Below are positions 17,221 to 55,423 of a DNA stretch of 64,000 nt, piece by piece. This DNA comes from Solobacterium sp. (lineage in GTDB: Bacteria > Bacillota_I > Bacilli_A > Erysipelotrichales > Erysipelotrichaceae). The position numbers and the translations under genes are program-made. The stretch is from NCBI GenBank assembly GCA_017469885.1, contig JAFUFO010000039.1:1-64000 (forward strand), given 5' to 3'. Positions within the stretch are counted from its first letter, which is position 1; the number at the start of each line of letters is the position of its first letter. A model generated the notes under the pieces. It did no database searches. It worked only from the letters and a program-made list of their open reading frames with translations, and had not been told where the DNA came from.

Positions 17221-18984
17221 TCAGTCGAAGATATGGTACTTTTCTTTCGGACTGTAACTGGTATGAAGGAGTTCTTCCGCAATCTCGCTTCCCGGTTTCT
17301 CAAGGAAGTCAGAATAGAGCTTCTGGATCTGAGGGTTATCGGAGCTTACACGCAGTGTGCATGCTTCATCCTCGTCATACAGCGCCTTCATACGGAGATC
17401 CTTGTATCCGTAGCCAAGCGGGCCATTCTTGATGCGGGACGAAACGATCGACTGACCGCCGCCGTTTACGCATCCGCCCGGGCAGCCCATAATCTCGATG
17501 AACGTATACTTGGACTTGCCTGCCTTGACTTCCTCAAGAAGCGGTTTTGCACAGGTCATGGAAGATGCAATCGCAATCCAGATCTTTGTGCCGTTCAGAT
17601 CAACTTCCGCTTCCTTGACGCCTGCCATACCGCGGCATGCCTCAAAGTCAACCTTCTCCAGCTTCTTGCCGTCAAGCTGCTGCTTGACTGTGCGGAGCGC
17701 TGCTTCCATAACGCCGCCGGTTGCGCCGAAGATAACGGCAGCACCGGTGTAGTCACCGAGCAGATCCTGGTCGAATTCTTCATCCGGAAGTTCATTGAAC
17801 TCAATGCCGTACATCTTGATCAGACGGCCGAGCTCACGGGTTGTAAGAACTGCATCTACGTCAACGTATTCCGCAGTCTTGTTCTCCGGACGCATGATTT
17901 CAGACTTCTTCGCAATGCACGGCATGATGGATACAACGAAGATGTCCTTCGGATCAATGCCGGTCTTCTTTGCCCAGTAAGACTTGACGATTGCGCCAAA
18001 CATCATATGCGGGCTCTTGGAAGTACTCAGATGCGGCAGGAGTTCCGGATATTCATATTCAATGTAACGGATCCATCCTGGAGAGCAACTTGTGAACATC
18101 GGCAGTACGCCGCCGTTCTGTACACGGTCAAGGAGCTCATTGCCCTCTTCCATGATCGTAAGGTCAGCACCGAAGTTGGTGTCATAAACACGGTCGAAAC
18201 CACAACGGCGGAGTGCCGCAACCATCTTGCCGGTAACACGTGTACCGATCGGGTTACCGAATTCTTCACCAAGGGATGCACGGACAGCCGGAGCAGTCTG
18301 TACAATAACGGTCTTGTTCGGATCGTTGAGTGCCTTTACAACTTCAGAGATATTTTCCTTTTCAGTCAGCGCACCGACCGGGCAGTTAATGACGCACTGT
18401 CCGCACTGCATGCAGTTGACATCCATGAAGCTCTTGTTGTAAACCGGCGCAACGATTGTCTTGAAACCACGGTTCTCAAGACCGAGGATACCAAGACCCT
18501 GAACCTTGCGGCAGGTCTCAACACAGCGTTCGCAGAGAACACACTTGCTGGTATCACGTACGATGCCGTAACTGAAGTCATCGTACTGTGGCTCGGTATG
18601 TTCACCTTCGAACTTGTTGTCACGGATTCCAAGATCCTCTGCCAGCTTCTGCAGTTCGCAGTTCTGATTGCGTTTGCAGGAAAGGCAGTTCTTGTTGTGG
18701 TTGGACATGATGAGCGAAACGGTGTTCTTCCGTCCGCGCAGTGCACGTTCACTGTTGGTGAATACTTCCATGCCCTCACTGACCGGAGTCGTGCAGGCGG
18801 AAAGCAGCGTTCTTCCGTTCTTGACTTCTACCAGGCATACGCGGCAGTTACCGGAACGGTTCACATCTTTCAGATAGCAGAGTGTGGGAATGTTGATTCC
18901 AGCATTGCGTGCTGCTTCAAGGACAGTCATTCCCGATTCTGCAGTAACGTTTACATTGTTAATTCTCAGATGTACAGCAGTCAT
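17221..18984 (-). CDS. hydA: [FeFe]-hydrogenase catalytic subunit (HydA/HndD type)
   Basis: Catalytic subunit of a multimeric cytoplasmic [FeFe]-hydrogenase, 587 residues. In order: N-terminal plant-type 2Fe-2S domain (Cys in LCYLKDVNRSGNCRVC), His/Cys 4Fe-4S domain, and two 4Fe-4S ferredoxin motifs (CVLCERCVETC; CMQCGQCVINCPVGAL). The H-cluster domain carries the three signatures: TSCSPGW (Cys near 299), MPCIAKKSE (near 355) and GCPGGCVNGGGQ (near 499-503). The small C-terminal subunit region is fused. AAAGGAG precedes the start. With hydB and hydC it should form a bifurcating enzyme coupling NAD(P)H and ferredoxin to H2. The maturation genes hydE, hydF and hydG are not in this window. Confidence 0.95.
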   Translation of the reverse strand: MTAVHLRINNVNVTAESGMTVLEAARNAGINIPTLCYLKDVNRSGNCRVCLVEVKNGRTLLSACTTPVSEGMEVFTNSERALRGRKNTVSLIMSNHNKNCLSCKRNQNCELQKLAEDLGIRDNKFEGEHTEPQYDDFSYGIVRDTSKCVLCERCVETCRKVQGLGILGLENRGFKTIVAPVYNKSFMDVNCMQCGQCVINCPVGALTEKENISEVVKALNDPNKTVIVQTAPAVRASLGEEFGNPIGTRVTGKMVAALRRCGFDRVYDTNFGADLTIMEEGNELLDRVQNGGVLPMFTSCSPGWIRYIEYEYPELLPHLSTSKSPHMMFGAIVKSYWAKKTGIDPKDIFVVSIMPCIAKKSEIMRPENKTAEYVDVDAVLTTRELGRLIKMYGIEFNELPDEEFDQDLLGDYTGAAVIFGATGGVMEAALRTVKQQLDGKKLEKVDFEACRGMAGVKEAEVDLNGTKIWIAIASSMTCAKPLLEEVKAGKSKYTFIEIMGCPGGCVNGGGQSIVSSRIKNGPLGYGYKDLRMKALYDEDEACTLRVSSDNPQIQKLYSDFLEKPGSEIAEELLHTSYSPKEKYHIFD

Positions 18985-19002
18985 CGTTATTTTCTCCTTT
19001 CA

Positions 19003-20889
19003 TCAGCGACGCACTACCGCACCGAAGCGGCATGCGTTCATACAGCTGCCACACTTAATGCACTTCTCAGGATCAATCTTGAAGACTTCTTTACCGGCAA
19101 CACCGGAAATCGCGTTGACCGGGCATCCTCTCGAGCAGAGCGAGCACTTGCGGCACTTGTCCGGATCGATCGAGTATGTGAGGAGATCCTTACATACGCC
19201 TGCCGGGCAGCGTTTTTCAAGAATATGAGCTTCATATTCATCGCGGAAATGAGAAAGTGTGGAGAGAATCGGGTTCGGTGCTGTCTGACCAAGACCGCAG
19301 AGCGCAGTATCCTTGATCTCATGGCAGAGCTGCTCCATTTCATCGAGCATTTCCATGGTTCCCTCACCCTTTGTGATCTTCGTCAGCATCTCAAGCAGAC
19401 GCTTGGTTCCGACACGGCACGGCGTGCACTTACCACAGGACTCTTCGACGATGAATTCCATATAGAACTTCGCAACGTCGACCATACAGTTATCTTCATC
19501 AAGAACGATCATACCGCCGGAACCCATCATGGAACCAGCAGCTACCAGGTTATCGTAGTCAATCGGAGTATCCAGTTCTTTTTCCGTGAGGCATCCGCCG
19601 GAAGGTCCGCCGGTCTGAACTGCCTTGAACTTCTTGTCATTCGGGCATCCGCCGCCGATTTCATAGATGATTTCACGAAGTGTGGTTCCCATCGGAATCT
19701 CAACAAGACCGGTATTACGAATCTTTCCGCCGAGCGCAAATACCTTTGTGCCCTTGGACTTTTCAGTACCGATGGAGGAGTACCATGCGGCACCCTTGTT
19801 GATGATCTGAGCAACGTTCGCCAGAGTCTCCACGTTATTGATGGAGGTCGGCTTGCCCCAGACACCCTTTACTGCCGGGAACGGAGGTTTCGGACGCGGC
19901 ATACCGCGCTGACCTTCGATGGATGCGATCAGAGCTGTCTCTTCACCACAGACGAACGCACCGGCACCAAGACGGATCTCAATATCGAAATTGAATCCGC
20001 TGCCGAAAATATTATCACCGAGCAGGCCAAGCTCATGAGCCTGACGGATCGCAATCTTCAGACGGTGAACGGCAATCGGATATTCTGCACGGATATAGAT
20101 ATATCCCTTGTGAGCACCGACTGCGTAAGCCATGATAGCCATACCTTCGAGGACCGCATGCGGATCACCTTCCAGAATGGAACGATCCATGAATGCGCCC
20201 GGGTCACCTTCATCGGCGTTACAGATGACGTATTTCTCATCACCCGGCTGATCCTTTTCAAACTGCCATTTGACACCTGCCGGGAAACCTGCGCCGCCGC
20301 GTCCGCGGAGTCCGCTGGCTTTCATCTCATCGATGACTTCCTGCGGTGTCATGGAGGTCAGAGCCTTTGCAAGTCCCTGATAACCATCGATCGCAATATA
20401 TTCTGTGATATCTTCCGGACCGATTCTGCCGCAGTTGCGAAGCGCAATACGCTGCTGCTTCTCGTAGAATTTGATCTTTTCAATATCATGGATGCGCTGC
20501 TTTGTTTCCGGATCTTCGTCATACAGCTGCATGTCTTCGATGACACGCCCGTTAACGATATGTTCCTCAACAATGCGCTCTGCATCTTCCGGTTTTACAT
20601 GGCAGTAATAAATGTTATCCGGGAAGATAGCCATGATCGGGCCCTTCTGGCAGAGACCGAAGCAGCCTGTCTTAACAAGGTTAACTTCTCCCTGAATACC
20701 GCGCTTTACCAGTTCTGCCTTCAGATTTTCGATGATCTTGTCAGAATTGGAAGCGTGACATCCGGTACCGCCGCAGGTAAGCACATCAAGACGGATCTTA
20801 TCATCCGCAGGCTTGTCCATGCCTTCACGCAGCGCAACTTTACTTCTGGACTGCTCACGCAGTTCATTTAATTCATTTACACTGTTCAT
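19003..20889 (-). CDS. hydB: Hydrogenase flavin subunit, NuoF-like (HydB/HndC)
   Basis: NAD(P)H-binding diaphorase subunit, 628 residues. An N-terminal thioredoxin-like 2Fe-2S domain (LTCGGTGCHAS ... TGCFGLCQKGP) precedes the NuoF core. The core has an NADH/FMN site (GRGGAGFPAGVKW; CNADEGDPGAFMDR), an SLBB domain and the N3-type cluster (CGKCTPCRVG). Two C-terminal ferredoxin 4Fe-4S motifs follow (CRKCSLCSRGCP; CIKCGSCMNAC). This domain order is diagnostic of bifurcating hydrogenases. ATG 20889 follows CAGGAGAAC; the longer frame adds nine residues from the spacer. It is 18 bases from hydA. Confidence 0.95.
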   Translation of the reverse strand: MNSVNELNELREQSRSKVALREGMDKPADDKIRLDVLTCGGTGCHASNSDKIIENLKAELVKRGIQGEVNLVKTGCFGLCQKGPIMAIFPDNIYYCHVKPEDAERIVEEHIVNGRVIEDMQLYDEDPETKQRIHDIEKIKFYEKQQRIALRNCGRIGPEDITEYIAIDGYQGLAKALTSMTPQEVIDEMKASGLRGRGGAGFPAGVKWQFEKDQPGDEKYVICNADEGDPGAFMDRSILEGDPHAVLEGMAIMAYAVGAHKGYIYIRAEYPIAVHRLKIAIRQAHELGLLGDNIFGSGFNFDIEIRLGAGAFVCGEETALIASIEGQRGMPRPKPPFPAVKGVWGKPTSINNVETLANVAQIINKGAAWYSSIGTEKSKGTKVFALGGKIRNTGLVEIPMGTTLREIIYEIGGGCPNDKKFKAVQTGGPSGGCLTEKELDTPIDYDNLVAAGSMMGSGGMIVLDEDNCMVDVAKFYMEFIVEESCGKCTPCRVGTKRLLEMLTKITKGEGTMEMLDEMEQLCHEIKDTALCGLGQTAPNPILSTLSHFRDEYEAHILEKRCPAGVCKDLLTYSIDPDKCRKCSLCSRGCPVNAISGVAGKEVFKIDPEKCIKCGSCMNACRFGAVVRR

Positions 20890-20912
20890 ACGTTGTTCTC
20901 CTGGATGTTTTA

Positions 20913-21401
20913 TCAAGCAAGCTTTTCTGCGGCCTTAATACGGTTGATTTCTGCAGTAACTGTTTCCTTCGTGCAGTTACCGAATACTTTTCCGTCAATG
21001 ACACAGACAGGCGCAAGACCGCACGCACCAAGACATCTAGTCGCATCAAGCGAGAAGATACCGTCTTCACTGGTGGAGTTGATCTGTGTTCCTGTAAGCG
21101 CCATGGTCTGGTCAATCAGTGCCTGTGCACCCTTGACGTAACATGCTGTTCCAAGGCAGATGTTGATGACATGTTTCCCCTTCGGGCTTGTTGTGAACTG
21201 CGCATAGAAGCATACAACACCGTAAACTTCGGCAACGCTTGTACCGGTCGCTTCGGCAATCTTTTCCATTGCTTCAAACGGTACATACCCGAGAGAATCC
21301 TGCACGTCGTGCAGCATTACGATCACCGGACCGGGTTCATTCCGGTGACGTTCGACAATCTCGTCGATTGTCTTGAGAGAATCCTGGTTCAGTCTCTCCA
21401 T
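20913..21401 (-). CDS. hydC: Hydrogenase 2Fe-2S subunit, NuoE-like (HydC/HndA)
   Basis: NuoE-like thioredoxin-fold 2Fe-2S electron carrier, 162 residues. The cluster Cys residues are in CLGTACYVKGA and CLGACGLAPVC. The true start is ATG 21401 after GAAGGAGGAG; a longer frame would start inside the permease gene. The start codon shares one base with the permease stop (TGATG), so the two are translationally coupled. It is the first structural gene of the hydrogenase trio. Confidence 0.93.
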   Translation of the reverse strand: MERLNQDSLKTIDEIVERHRNEPGPVIVMLHDVQDSLGYVPFEAMEKIAEATGTSVAEVYGVVCFYAQFTTSPKGKHVINICLGTACYVKGAQALIDQTMALTGTQINSTSEDGIFSLDATRCLGACGLAPVCVIDGKVFGNCTKETVTAEINRIKAAEKLA

Positions 21402-22135
21402 CACAGCTCCTCCTTCATTCGCTGAGCCTGCAGCCAGCTGAATAGCAGATCGATTCCAACTGACAGCAGAATAATAACGATCGTCCATGCGACGATTCCG
21501 GCGGTATCAAGATTCAGTCTTGCATAGTTCATACTGCGCCCGATTCCGCTTCGTACCTGACCGAGAATTTCAGCCATAATACCTACTTTAAGCCCGAGCC
21601 CTGCGGCCGTTTTTCCAGTCGCAAGCATCTCAGGGACAAGATCCGGCAGAACTCTGTATTTCAGCCGGAAGAAGAATGTTTCAGGGTAAATCTGTTCGAC
21701 TTCCCTGAGTGTTTCATCGGTACCTGCAAGCCGGTTAGAAAACGCATTGGCAAATACCGGAAACAGAATCATGAAACTGACAGCACTCACTGCACCTTCT
21801 GCGCCGAGCCATATCAGGGCAATAACGATATAGCTGATATTCGGAATCGTCCGCGTAATGACCAGCAGCGGTGAGACGCACATCTGGAAACGCGGAAACC
21901 GTTCCGCAAGAATACTGATGACAAGTGCTGCGGCAAATGACAGAAAGAATCCTTTCGCAACACGTAACAGTGTTGAGCCGACTGCACCGTAAAACTCCGG
22001 TTTCCGGAACAGTTCAACCGTACGTGAAAGTGTTTCCAGCGGATAAGGAATCAGAATATCATTGTGAACACTGACTGCCGCAATCTGCCACAGAACCAGT
22101 ATAAAAATCACGCTGAAAACATGTTCTTTCTTCAT
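21401..22135 (-). CDS. ABC transporter permease, NitT/TauT (SsuC/TauC) type
   Basis: Inner-membrane permease of 244 residues with about six transmembrane segments. The cytoplasmic EAA-like loop is visible (GTDETLREVEQIYP ... FFRLKYRVLPDLVPEM). Homologues import sulfonates, thiamine precursors, nitrate or other small organic ions with a periplasmic or lipoprotein partner and an ATPase. The partner binding protein is encoded just upstream; no ATPase gene is nearby. The gene is fused translationally to hydC, which ties its expression to the hydrogenase. Start 22135 is preceded only by GAGG two bases away, and the putative -10 is just 9 bases upstream. The substrate is unknown. Confidence 0.85.
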   Translation of the reverse strand: MKKEHVFSVIFILVLWQIAAVSVHNDILIPYPLETLSRTVELFRKPEFYGAVGSTLLRVAKGFFLSFAAALVISILAERFPRFQMCVSPLLVITRTIPNISYIVIALIWLGAEGAVSAVSFMILFPVFANAFSNRLAGTDETLREVEQIYPETFFFRLKYRVLPDLVPEMLATGKTAAGLGLKVGIMAEILGQVRSGIGRSMNYARLNLDTAGIVAWTIVIILLSVGIDLLFSWLQAQRMKEEL

Positions 22136-22250: not shown

Positions 22251-23300
22251 TTACTTGATGATTGTGGCTTCTGTATCCGCGATTCCGAACAGTTCGCCGA
22301 ATTTCTTGAGTTCTTCTGTGTGTTCGGAAGCACGTACAACTTTGATATTCAGGCGCTTCCAAACCTTGGCAACGATCTGTGCGCTCGGGATTCCAAGAGC
22401 TTCAGCACCGCCTGCACTTTCAATTGCCTTGACAATTGCTTCTTCACCAAGATCGCCTGCCGCAAGAGAGAATACATTCATTACCGCAAACAGACCGTCA
22501 ATGTCTGCTTTCTTTTCCGCATAAGCATCTTCACGTACGAACAGTGCAGCCTGCGGGAATCCGCTGCCGTCACCCCAATGGCTCTGTACATCATCGATGA
22601 TCTCGAGTTCCTTGCCGCTTTCCTTCGCCTTGGCGATGATTGCGGTTGCGTTGGGTTCTGCAAGCATCGCGACATCCGCATTGCCTGCCATCAGCGCAGC
22701 ACTTGCGTCTGCGGTGCTGTTATACCAGGTAACAGTGCTCATATCGAGAGATTCGCCGTAAACTTCGCTGAATACCTTTCCGGTTACAGACTGTTCACCA
22801 AAGGACGCAACATTGGTCCAGGTGGACGCATCTGCCGCTGTGCCCTTCGGGCCAACGATATACAGGTTTCCCCATGTTACGATACCGAGCATCTTATACG
22901 GAGATTTGCCTGCTTCCGCAAGTTTCATACCGAGGTTGCTCGGTGCAACGATAACGTCATATTCCGGTTCCGGATTGACTAACGCCGCCTGAAGCGGATC
23001 AGCACCTTCGACAAAATCAACCTTTGCGCCGCATACGACAGCCGGTACCAGTGACAGTGCCGGTGCGCCGGACGGAGACAGAATCTTGAGATCAACGTTG
23101 ATATCCGCAGTTCCCTCTAATACGGCGTTGACATCAACTCCTGCGCCCTCTGCTGCCTGTTCAACGGTTTCCGCAGCCTGCTCGACTGCCTCTTTTGCTT
23201 CTTCAGGAAGCGCACTGGGCACCGGACTCTGTTCCGATGTTGCAGTTCCGCAGCCTGCAAGCATCAGTCCTGCCAGTAATACACTTAAAAACTTTTTCAT
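22251..23300 (-). CDS. ABC substrate-binding lipoprotein, NMT1/TauA-like
   Basis: Lipoprotein of 349 residues with a signal peptide and lipobox LAGC (Cys17). An acidic Ala/Glu spacer follows, then a periplasmic-binding-protein type II fold of the NitT/TauT/NMT1 kind (LSPSGAPALSLVPAVVCGAK; AGNADVAMLAEPNA). It should capture the ligand for the permease encoded downstream. Start 23300 follows GGAGGAAAG. The gene begins 11 bases after the hydrogenase-regulator gene, so they are co-transcribed. The ligand cannot be read from the sequence. Confidence 0.85.
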   Translation of the reverse strand: MKKFLSVLLAGLMLAGCGTATSEQSPVPSALPEEAKEAVEQAAETVEQAAEGAGVDVNAVLEGTADINVDLKILSPSGAPALSLVPAVVCGAKVDFVEGADPLQAALVNPEPEYDVIVAPSNLGMKLAEAGKSPYKMLGIVTWGNLYIVGPKGTAADASTWTNVASFGEQSVTGKVFSEVYGESLDMSTVTWYNSTADASAALMAGNADVAMLAEPNATAIIAKAKESGKELEIIDDVQSHWGDGSGFPQAALFVREDAYAEKKADIDGLFAVMNVFSLAAGDLGEEAIVKAIESAGGAEALGIPSAQIVAKVWKRLNIKVVRASEHTEELKKFGELFGIADTEATIIK

Positions 23301-23311
23301 CTTTCCTCCAG

Positions 23312-23560
23312 TCAAAGTTTCTGATAGGCCGTTTTAACCGCAATCCCTTCAATTTTCCCCAGCTTACCTGTCATCGCACTGATCATTTCATTTGGCGCGT
23401 CAACTGCCACGCTGATCAGTGAGAGATTTTTAGCCCGGTACGGGATTCCCATCCGGCCGATCACATACGAACTGTATTCATGAAGAATACGATTCACTTC
23501 ATCTGCCGCATCAATATTCTCAACGATAATTGCAATCACAGCGATTCTTGTTTCCATCAT
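23312..23560 (-). CDS. TM1266-family putative [FeFe]-hydrogenase regulator
   Basis: A small protein of 82 residues with an ACT/NikR-like ferredoxin fold pattern. Its sequence (IVENIDAADEVNRILHEY; GRMGIPYR; ISVAVDAPNEMISAMTGKLG) matches what I recall of the TM1266 family, annotated as a putative iron-only hydrogenase system regulator. Position supports this: it opens the operon that ends in hydCBA. There is no DNA-binding ribbon-helix-helix, so its mode of action is open; ligand sensing is an inference. ATG 23557 has better spacing to AAGGAG than ATG 23560. Confidence 0.85.
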   Translation of the reverse strand: MMETRIAVIAIIVENIDAADEVNRILHEYSSYVIGRMGIPYRAKNLSLISVAVDAPNEMISAMTGKLGKIEGIAVKTAYQKL

Positions 23561-23575
23561 TTCTCTCCTTTACCG

Positions 23576-23602
23576 AAAAAAAGCCCTGTCAAATGACAAG
23601 GC
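23576..23602 (-). terminator. Attenuator-type terminator in the leader of the hydrogenase operon
   Basis: Minus-strand AGCCTTGTCA / TGACAGGGCT stem followed by seven T. It lies between the promoter and the first gene, so most transcripts could stop here unless the fold is altered. Confidence 0.75.
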
Positions 23603-23678
23603 TCAGCAGAAAAAATAAATGAATACTTGCTGCCTCGTATCGCTCCGAATTACTCATTGCGGTCAGATGACAGTAATA
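23603..23678 (-). promoter_or_regulatory. Structured 5' leader, candidate riboswitch or attenuator
   Basis: About 75 bases of leader precede the attenuator. ATTACT pairs with AGTAAT around CTGTCATCTGACCGC-type sequence, and ATAC pairs with GTAT around a G-rich loop. The CTGTCA segment at the 5' end could pair with TGACAG in the 3' arm of the attenuator, giving an antiterminator. I could not match it to a known riboswitch consensus. Confidence 0.4.
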
Positions 23679-23706
23679 ACTATATCATTATTTTTCCAAA
23701 CATCAA
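23679..23706 (-). promoter_or_regulatory. Promoter of the regulator-ABC-hydrogenase operon
   Basis: Minus strand: -35 TTGATG (23701-23706), 16-base spacer, -10 TATAGT (23679-23684) with an upstream TG (extended -10). Confidence 0.6.
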
Positions 23707-23776: not shown

Positions 23777-24760
23777 TTACTTTGAATATACCGCGTAGAG
23801 GTACAGATTGGATCCGGTATTCTTGATGAATGCGCCGGGTTTCCATCTGACATATCCGGTATTTGCCGCATAGTCCCAGCCGATCAGATGCATTCCCTCC
23901 GGTGCCCAGGATACGGTTTTCGGCGCAACCCAGTACTGACCGACGTATGCGGTGTACTGAATGCCGTCTGCTTCCATAGTGTTCTTATGGTTGAAGTCAA
24001 CATCAGAAGACGGTGCAGGTGTCGGAGCCGGTGCGGGTTTGTCTCCGCCCTGTCCGCCGGAACCCTGCTTTACAAGATGCGGAGTTCCGTCACTGCCGAA
24101 CCACCAGTAATTGTTGTAGTCATCACGATAGATATAGTATCCATCGTTGCTGCGGTAGGAATAGTAGTAAGTATAGTTATTGACTCCCGGTTTCCAGTAA
24201 CTTCCATCGGGATAACCATACGTCCAGCGCTGCGGGATTCCGCCCTGCGCAAACCACCATGTCTTTCCATATCCGTCGGTATAAACGTTATATCCGTTCG
24301 GAGATGTAAAGGAATAGTAGAACGTGTAGTTGTTTACGGTCGGTGTTGGAGCCGGTGCCGGTGCGGGCGCAGGTTCCGTTCCGTAAAGATGCAGAATTCC
24401 ATCATTTCCGACGGTATACAGTTTGCCGTCCGGATTCTTGTAGACAGTGACTCCGTTTACAGTGTTGTAATACGTCAGACTATACTGTGTGATGGTCTTG
24501 GCTGCCGCCGCTGTAGCGCCGTCAAGACGATTTCCATATGCATCCAGATACGTGCGGTTTCCATAGTCATCATAGACCCAGGAGTATCCGTTCTGTGTAT
24601 ATACAGTCCAGCCTTTTCCGTTGATCTGCCAGGTATACGGTCCGTCGATATCACCCCACGGACCAAGACCTGCGGTCTGTGCAGCGACCGGTGTCACGTT
24701 CATGCCGAGCATTACAAATGCGCAGATCCCTGCCATAAAACTGATTAATAATTTCTTCAT
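23777..24760 (-). CDS. Secreted protein with aromatic repeats and InlB-type C-terminal domain
   Basis: A 327-residue exported protein of unknown function. A signal peptide is cleaved near VAAQ (residues 26-28). About four Tyr/Trp/Asn/Gly-rich repeats follow; two share NNYT(F/Y)YYS ... WWF (about 142-190 and 193-235). Pro/Ala linkers separate them (PAPAPAPTPT; PAPAPTPAP). The C-terminal 70 residues, with GMHLIGWDYAANTG, look like an InlB/Listeria-Bacteroides beta repeat. There is no LPXTG motif or membrane anchor, so it is probably released or bound to the wall non-covalently. The repeats recall wall- or glycan-binding modules but I do not recognise the family. GGAGGTAAT precedes the start. 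Confidence 0.75.
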   Translation of the reverse strand: MKKLLISFMAGICAFVMLGMNVTPVAAQTAGLGPWGDIDGPYTWQINGKGWTVYTQNGYSWVYDDYGNRTYLDAYGNRLDGATAAAAKTITQYSLTYYNTVNGVTVYKNPDGKLYTVGNDGILHLYGTEPAPAPAPAPTPTVNNYTFYYSFTSPNGYNVYTDGYGKTWWFAQGGIPQRWTYGYPDGSYWKPGVNNYTYYYSYRSNDGYYIYRDDYNNYWWFGSDGTPHLVKQGSGGQGGDKPAPAPTPAPSSDVDFNHKNTMEADGIQYTAYVGQYWVAPKTVSWAPEGMHLIGWDYAANTGYVRWKPGAFIKNTGSNLYLYAVYSK

Positions 24761-35741: not shown

Positions 35742-35963
35742 AACAAAAGAAAACGTCCTATGCGAAGGACGCTGTAAGCGTGGTACCACCTTGCTTGCTT
35801 CTCAAGACGCGTTAACGTGCGTAATCCGGCTGTTCTTACTGAATGTTCAGAGCAGCAGCTCCCGGAGGACTTCCCGTGAATGGCATCTGTTTTCTTTCAC
35901 CAGCCGAAAACTCTCTGTAAGAATGCAGATCCACGATACTTGTTCCGTTCATCGCTTATTGCG
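35742..35963 (-). promoter_or_regulatory. T-box leader controlling valS
   Basis: Minus-strand T-box AAGGTGGTACCACGC at 35778-35792 and terminator GCGTCC / GGACG with T-rich tail (35742-35772). GTC at 35868-35870, in a GAAGTC context, is a plausible valine specifier. The spacing resembles the thrS leader. Confidence 0.93.
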
Positions 35964-41050: not shown

Positions 41051-41160
41051 TTACACCTCCTGACTGCATATCTTAAGACGCGCCATTAAGGGGGTTTTTA
41101 CACGCTTAAACCCTTTTCTGAGCGGTTACAGACCTCAATCATGAGGACTGAAACATGAAA
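41051..41160 (-). ncRNA. Probable L21 leader (autoregulatory 5' UTR of rplU)
   Basis: About 110 bases between promoter and rplU show several paired segments, including CCTCATGATTGAGG, AAGGGTTT...AAACCCCCTT and GGCGCGTC. The position and G/C-rich blocks fit the L21 leader family described in Firmicutes; a covariance-model search would be needed to prove it. Confidence 0.6.
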
Positions 41161-55290: not shown

Positions 55291-55315
55291 GGAAATTGAT
55301 AAAAGAAAATAACTC

Positions 55316-55423
55316 TTCCATCCAGACTGTACTGTCGCCACCGGAATTGCACCGGTTCAGGCAGATGCCTCGCGGGGTATACCGCCGATCGGGAATTTCA
55401 CCCTGCCCTGAGTTTCTTCCCTG
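55316..55423 (-). promoter_or_regulatory. FMN riboswitch (RFN element)
   Basis: The minus strand shows conserved RFN blocks in order: GGGCAGGGTGAAATTCCCGA, CGGCGGTA, ACCGGTGCAATTCCGGTGG, CGACAGT and AGTCTGGATGG. FMN binding should promote termination at 55262-55290 and reduce RibU synthesis. Confidence 0.96.

Follow-up and report, generated by a model that had tools for sequence, protein, structure and literature searches.

The locus studied here raises the question of whether the leader of an [FeFe] hydrogenase operon contains an RNA switch, and, if so, what such a switch might sense. The DNA is a 64-kb stretch from Solobacterium sp., a gut bacterium (GCA_017469885.1, contig JAFUFO010000039.1, forward-strand positions 1-64,000), hereafter called the window. 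The original prediction, made from these letters alone, held that a promoter, a segment with internal pairing and a strong terminator precede the first gene of the operon, and that CTGTCA in the 5' part can pair with TGACAG in the terminator to give an antiterminator.

Results

The leader and operon of the window

Promoter, structured segment and terminator are all present (Table 1), as seen in the sequence, in a pattern scan and in a match to covariance model R1, and CTGTCA (23673-23668) is indeed complementary to TGACAG (23591-23586). The promoter is followed by a 51-nt segment, a linker, the terminator, a ribosome site and the start codon of the TM1266-family gene (23560), and the terminator hairpin runs into T7 (23581-23575, minus strand). 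The R1 score in Table 1 should be read with some caution, as the window leader is itself among the 11 sequences from which R1 was built. Strand b was assigned from the sequence together with ON-fold prediction for the window and its relatives. The pattern scan returned two terminator-like sites, versus 0.6 expected in shuffles. Folded as a single sequence, the leader differs only mildly from shuffles (z -1.8; 11 of 200 equally stable), and the case for it consequently rests on comparison.

Table 1. Features of the leader and of the operon that it precedes, in window coordinates.
Feature	Positions	Strand	Basis or partner
Promoter: TTGATG (23706-23701), 16 nt, extended -10 TGA-TATAGT (23684-23679)	23679..23706	-	sequence
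Receptor hairpin P1-P3, conserved, ~50 nt	23626..23676	-	R1 match, 69.5 bits; covaries in alignment A4
Strand a = P1 5' arm CTGTC; CTGTCA with the next base (to 23668) pairs with TGACAG 23591-23586 in the predicted ON fold	23669..23673	-	
P2 5' arm CGC	23659..23661	-	partner GCG 23643-23641
Inner loop AA/GA between P2 and P3	P3 = TGA 23656-23654 / TCG 23648-23646	-	
P1 3' arm GGCAG	23630..23634	-	partner 23673-23669
Strand b ACGAGGC	23632..23638	-	complement of terminator 5' arm GCCTTGT (23602-23596)
Intrinsic terminator hairpin GAGCCTTGTC-ATTT-GACAGGGCTT, strands c + d	23581..23604	-	
TGACAG, terminator loop/3' arm	23586..23591	-	antiterminator partner of CTGTCA
First gene: putative regulator of the TM1266 family, possibly an effector that binds the RNA	23312..23560	-	TIGR03959, 116.9 bits (cut-off 60.8)
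NMT1/NrtA-like substrate-binding lipoprotein	22251..23315	-	profile match to 3hn0, E 3e-15
ABC permease (TauC/SaoP-like)	21401..22135	-	below curated cut-offs
NuoE-like, NuoF-like, [FeFe] hydrogenase group A6	17221..21488	-	NF040763, 874.5 bits (cut-off 765)

The product of the first gene is small and ferredoxin/ACT-like, with PDB relative 2nzc. No Pfam family scored above cut-off on the lipoprotein, to which 3hn0 is the closest solved structure; NMT1-like lipoproteins of this kind occur in 168 of the 295 Erysipelotrichales genomes searched, frequently immediately downstream of thrS and beside permease and NuoE-like genes. Just 5' of the leader lies the gene of a 327-aa protein (23777-24760, minus strand) with a signal-like N-terminus and its own terminator (23766-23735), for which no Pfam or NCBIfam family was matched.

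The leader had been described as fitting no riboswitch consensus, which agrees with our searches: no Rfam 15 family matched it at gathering threshold, and permissive E-values yielded chance-level matches only. One of these, to the ribosomal protein L10 leader (RF00557), extends over the whole leader, but its score (18.5 bits) is far under the threshold of 44 and no ribosomal protein gene is found here. Gathering-level matches elsewhere in the window, all on the minus strand, were a T-box (35762-35961), an FMN riboswitch (55306-55419) and an L21 leader (41066-41137). A T-box was rejected for the leader, since RF00230 matches only at the first of these places.

Conservation and covariation

The original prediction staked its case on conservation and covariation in relatives, and the leader was found to be conserved, to covary and to precede genes of the same functional set. 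Close relatives carry a nearly unchanged segment 5' of the orthologous gene. A search of 316 genomes from the order with R1 gave 30 sites of 20-70 bits before these operons, spread over 29 genomes of the genus to which the window belongs (two sites in G013); all matches of 25 bits or more were leaders of such operons, and off-target matches stayed below 24 bits. A second model, R2, added G085 (30.2 bits), G069 (26.2) and G072 (21.6), and a further, weak member at L017 (G011) is correctly placed. The total, including the window leader with its terminator, comes to about 33 of the 70 genomes of the genus, as compared with only 5 of 70 by a strict pattern search. Weak model matches in G040, G159, G257, G273, G300, G305, G234, G168, G010 and others were rejected as false, being located inside genes or in unrelated context.

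Covariation was assessed in an alignment of 31 leaders (A4), from which two false rows (window 57524 and the second G017 site) were left out. Read with the proviso that A4 was fitted to the model and leans towards the model structure, for which shuffles and slides control only partly, its covariation score was 0.254, versus 0.135 +/- 0.015 in column shuffles and at most 0.10 with slid partners, and 82% of its cells were paired versus at most 47% when slid. Changes on both sides were seen at all five P1 pairs and at three of the seven P2/P3 pairs; that P1 is paired in only 71% of A4 counts against our reading of the leader as a switch. The consensus runs P1 (NNGUC / GRCNN), AUCYGA, P2 (CCGC/GCGR), inner loop AA/GA, P3, a variable loop, NANGA and P1', and unpaired purines are conserved in both internal loops of the hairpin. 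Judged from the aligned sequences, the leader has a conserved structure for which covariation gives support. The -10 box is found, in most of 32 leaders, a few bases 5' of the first aligned column and at near-constant spacing, so that transcription of the leader probably starts at P1. The leader at L153:1101-1195 (G017) has a longer insert between the motif and its terminator; the motif matches weakly a second time there (14.2 bits), possibly as a degenerate tandem copy.

Outside the genus, the sample of the order and overlapping samples of the class (395 genomes) and the phylum (392) contained no credible covariance match, which makes this a narrow class of RNA; one 20-bit match in G642 lacks the context of a hydrogenase-type operon. 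Viral contigs and plasmids held no leader match. In another family, the gene order TM1266-HydE-HydG is found in G034, G032 and G025 (loci L010, L013, L016). A core resembling UCUGA-stem-GAAAG, with a terminator, is present in the leaders of G034 and G032, and in that of G008 inside the genus. With filters off, R2 scored these three at 9.1, 8.3 and 13.9 bits, which is individually weak; each match falls on the leader and is the best one in its locus. The leaders of L010 and L013 are possibly a divergent form of the same RNA, and we treat this as a lead.

Genes downstream of the leader

The description of the RNA as a hydrogenase-operon leader stands insofar as it is conserved before such operons, but proved too narrow, as operons for maturation plus transport are preceded by it as well. 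Three types were distinguished. In the first, TM1266, importer lipoprotein and permease are usually followed by NuoE, NuoF and hydrogenase genes (the window, G021, G077 and others), with no hydrogenase nearby in G022 and G070. The second comprises a NifH-like and two NifD/K-like genes, a FecB/FecCD/FecE importer, HydF, TM1266 and HydE (G004, G013, G055, G075), with similar sets in G002, G044 and G017; in G014, TM1266 lies on a different contig from the leader operon, and G069 has HydF and TM1266, then NuoE/NuoF. The third consists of FecB/CD/E, HydF and TM1266 (G083) or FecB/CD/E and TM1266 (G072). An ABC importer is present in every leader operon that could be read far enough downstream (G054 ends at a contig end), although the importer match in G068 is weak. 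By their family assignments, the genes downstream of the leader are functionally coherent across species, and as in TM1266/[FeFe] hydrogenase maturation gene sets, TIGR03959 is found beside HydE, HydF or hydrogenase genes.

HydG scored above cut-off in none of the 70 genus genomes and in one of 14 control genomes; HydE did so in 11 and HydF in 12 of the 70. The genome of the window (G000, 95.7% complete) has no HydE, HydF or HydG above cut-off, though its A6 hydrogenase scores well. Importer-carrying and HydF-carrying genomes share a single genome, G013 (Fisher p 0.011, kinship ignored, from an importer survey that was a sample and missed at least G020 and G050). At L152:1101-9717 (G013), NifH-like, two Oxidored_nitro, FecB/FecCD/FecE, HydF, TM1266 and HydE genes occur without HydG, as they do at L151, L156, L162, L170, L171 and L218, and this operon is possibly an alternative H-cluster maturation set. 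Two TM1266 paralogues are clustered with FecCD/E, HydE, NifHDK-like, FecB and HydF genes at L224 and L225 (G008, G082).

A predicted four-strand exchange

The CTGTCA/TGACAG antiterminator is conserved and shows compensatory changes, but it turned out to be only half of a four-strand exchange. In the OFF fold, P1 and the terminator are formed; in the ON fold, each arm of P1 is instead paired with the terminator, the 5' arm of P1 with its loop and 3' arm, and the 3' arm of P1 with its 5' arm. A counterpart of the terminator is present in 32 of 32 leaders, in most of which the 5' segment of the aptamer can base-pair with its own terminator, over the loop and 3' arm. Compensatory differences include AUCCU/AGGAU (L152), CUUCUGA/UCAGAAG (L161), UUACCU/GGGUAA (L162), CCAACC/GGUUGG (L164) and GGUCAUC/GAUGACC (L167), and the aptamer-terminator duplexes are more stable as native pairs than when swapped (-9.7 versus -8.3 kcal/mol, permutation p 1e-4). 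The second exchange, between the 3' side of the hairpin and the terminator 5' arm, is seen in the window as ACGAGGC/GCCUUGU and in L103 as GACGAAGAC/GUCUUCGUC.

ON folds were computed with terminator pairing penalised, and compared with those of chimeras that join the upstream half of one leader to the terminator of another. The first exchange was predicted in 29 of 32 leaders, the second in 27 and both in 25. Native ON energies were 3.14 kcal/mol better than those of the chimeras (sd 0.48; 0 of 20,000 permutations), an advantage also seen with progressively dissimilar sets of 26, 23 and 17 leaders, and reached by no permutation even with 17. The leader is thus predicted to carry an expression platform whose folds exclude each other. 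Strand exchange, like conservation and covariation, was established by computation, and by this comparative evidence the switch is real; we regard its architecture as very well supported.

The mean energies of the two folds, -26.8 (ON) and -28.8 kcal/mol (OFF), are from a nearest-neighbour model and differ by about 2 kcal/mol, which is within model error. Such closeness would by itself allow partial read-through, which speaks for a ligand-independent attenuator or RNA-stability element, with fixed partial termination setting expression and no effector. We consider this improbable, as a fixed attenuator needs neither conserved unpaired positions in the internal loops nor selection that keeps two exclusive folds in step. 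Attenuation by a leader peptide has still less in its favor. An ATG-started frame (ATGAGTAATTCG...) that ends within the terminator is present in the window leader, and in a few relatives with CAAUGAG, but most leaders read CAAAGAG and have no start codon, and no ribosome site lies 5' of the frame. We rejected this barely credible reading because the start codon is not conserved among leaders.

Discussion

Our results favor a conserved transcription-attenuation OFF switch, for which we infer the direction and the effector as follows. The RNA would start at P1. While the terminator loop emerges, two pairings would give an antiterminator and expressed genes: GUCAUCYGA, the 5' segment, would pair with this loop and with the nascent 3' arm, and ANGAGGC, on the 3' side of the hairpin, would pair with the 5' arm of the terminator. 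An effector holding the hairpin of about 50 nt (P1, two purine-rich internal loops, P2 and P3) would sequester both strands, so that the terminator forms and the genes are turned off. When the RNA is cut off at the terminator loop, the predicted fold is mainly the antiterminator (mean 4.75 pairs; P1 0.27). Since the antiterminator is thus the predicted fold before the terminator 3' arm exists, the default state would be ON, with termination brought about by an effector that holds P1.

We favor as effector a small metabolite tied to H-cluster supply and bound directly by the RNA, which would make the leader a riboswitch; to this, and to the explanation as a whole, we assign a probability of about one half. 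Two lines of evidence point to a metabolite. First, the same RNA stands over alternative routes, either importer plus hydrogenase or NifHDK-like/FecBCD/HydF/HydE, and such joint control over alternative supply routes is what riboswitch regulons typically show. Secondly, unpaired purines are conserved in the internal loops. The leader resembles transcription-terminating riboswitches in its 5' position, its compact covarying hairpin, its mutually exclusive terminator and antiterminator and its metabolic and transport operons. It differs from them in its full four-strand swap, with the receptor 5' arm paired to both loop and 3' arm of the terminator, and in that no Rfam class fits it.

The hairpin is small and its terminal loop variable, however, and it could therefore be a protein site. 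In PyrR-type attenuators, a small anti-antiterminator hairpin and a terminator precede an operon whose first gene encodes the regulator, and the present leader is alike in all three respects. By analogy, TM1266 may bind the hairpin, a small one with purine internal loops, perhaps together with a ligand of its own, and repress its own and related operons. TM1266 is usually the first gene, like pyrR in pyr operons, and is encoded in every leader genome checked (the copy in G054 is cut by a contig end, and G069 and G072 were judged by locus), even where it lies apart from the leader operon (G014, G020, G071). The leader is found in 12 of 17 genus genomes with TM1266 versus none of six without (23 genomes of known status; Fisher p 0.005, kinship ignored), and the other family with TM1266-HydE-HydG may have a similar, divergent leader. 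On the other hand, TM1266 occurs without this leader in G006, G007, G015, G018 and G019, the controlled operon lacks it in three genomes, and co-occurrence is partly built in, as the leader precedes TM1266 in most operons. TM1266 is a candidate RNA binder only and is not a PyrR homologue, and the best score of the PyrR model (RF00515) was 16.8 bits, on one leader, against a gathering threshold of 54. We hold protein-mediated attenuation to be a serious alternative, though a less probable one than direct metabolite binding.

The leader would represent a new class of regulatory RNA. In the open-access papers searched, we found no RNA element described for these genes. As far as the literature searched shows, it would be the first RNA described for [FeFe] hydrogenase and its maturation. 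A further, unlikely prospect is that what the RNA senses, by itself or via TM1266, is a building block or assembly intermediate of the H-cluster, and that the controlled importers supply that very compound. If so, part of the known maturation route would be taken over by the NMT1-like importer, or in other members by a NifHDK-like enzyme with a FecBCD importer, a suggestion prompted by genus members such as the window species that have an [FeFe] hydrogenase and no recognisable HydE, HydF or HydG. Since the same RNA marks the alternative gene sets, its effector would provide a direct handle both on the role of the TM1266 family and on how the H-cluster could be supplied in hydrogenase-encoding bacteria without HydG or any known maturase.
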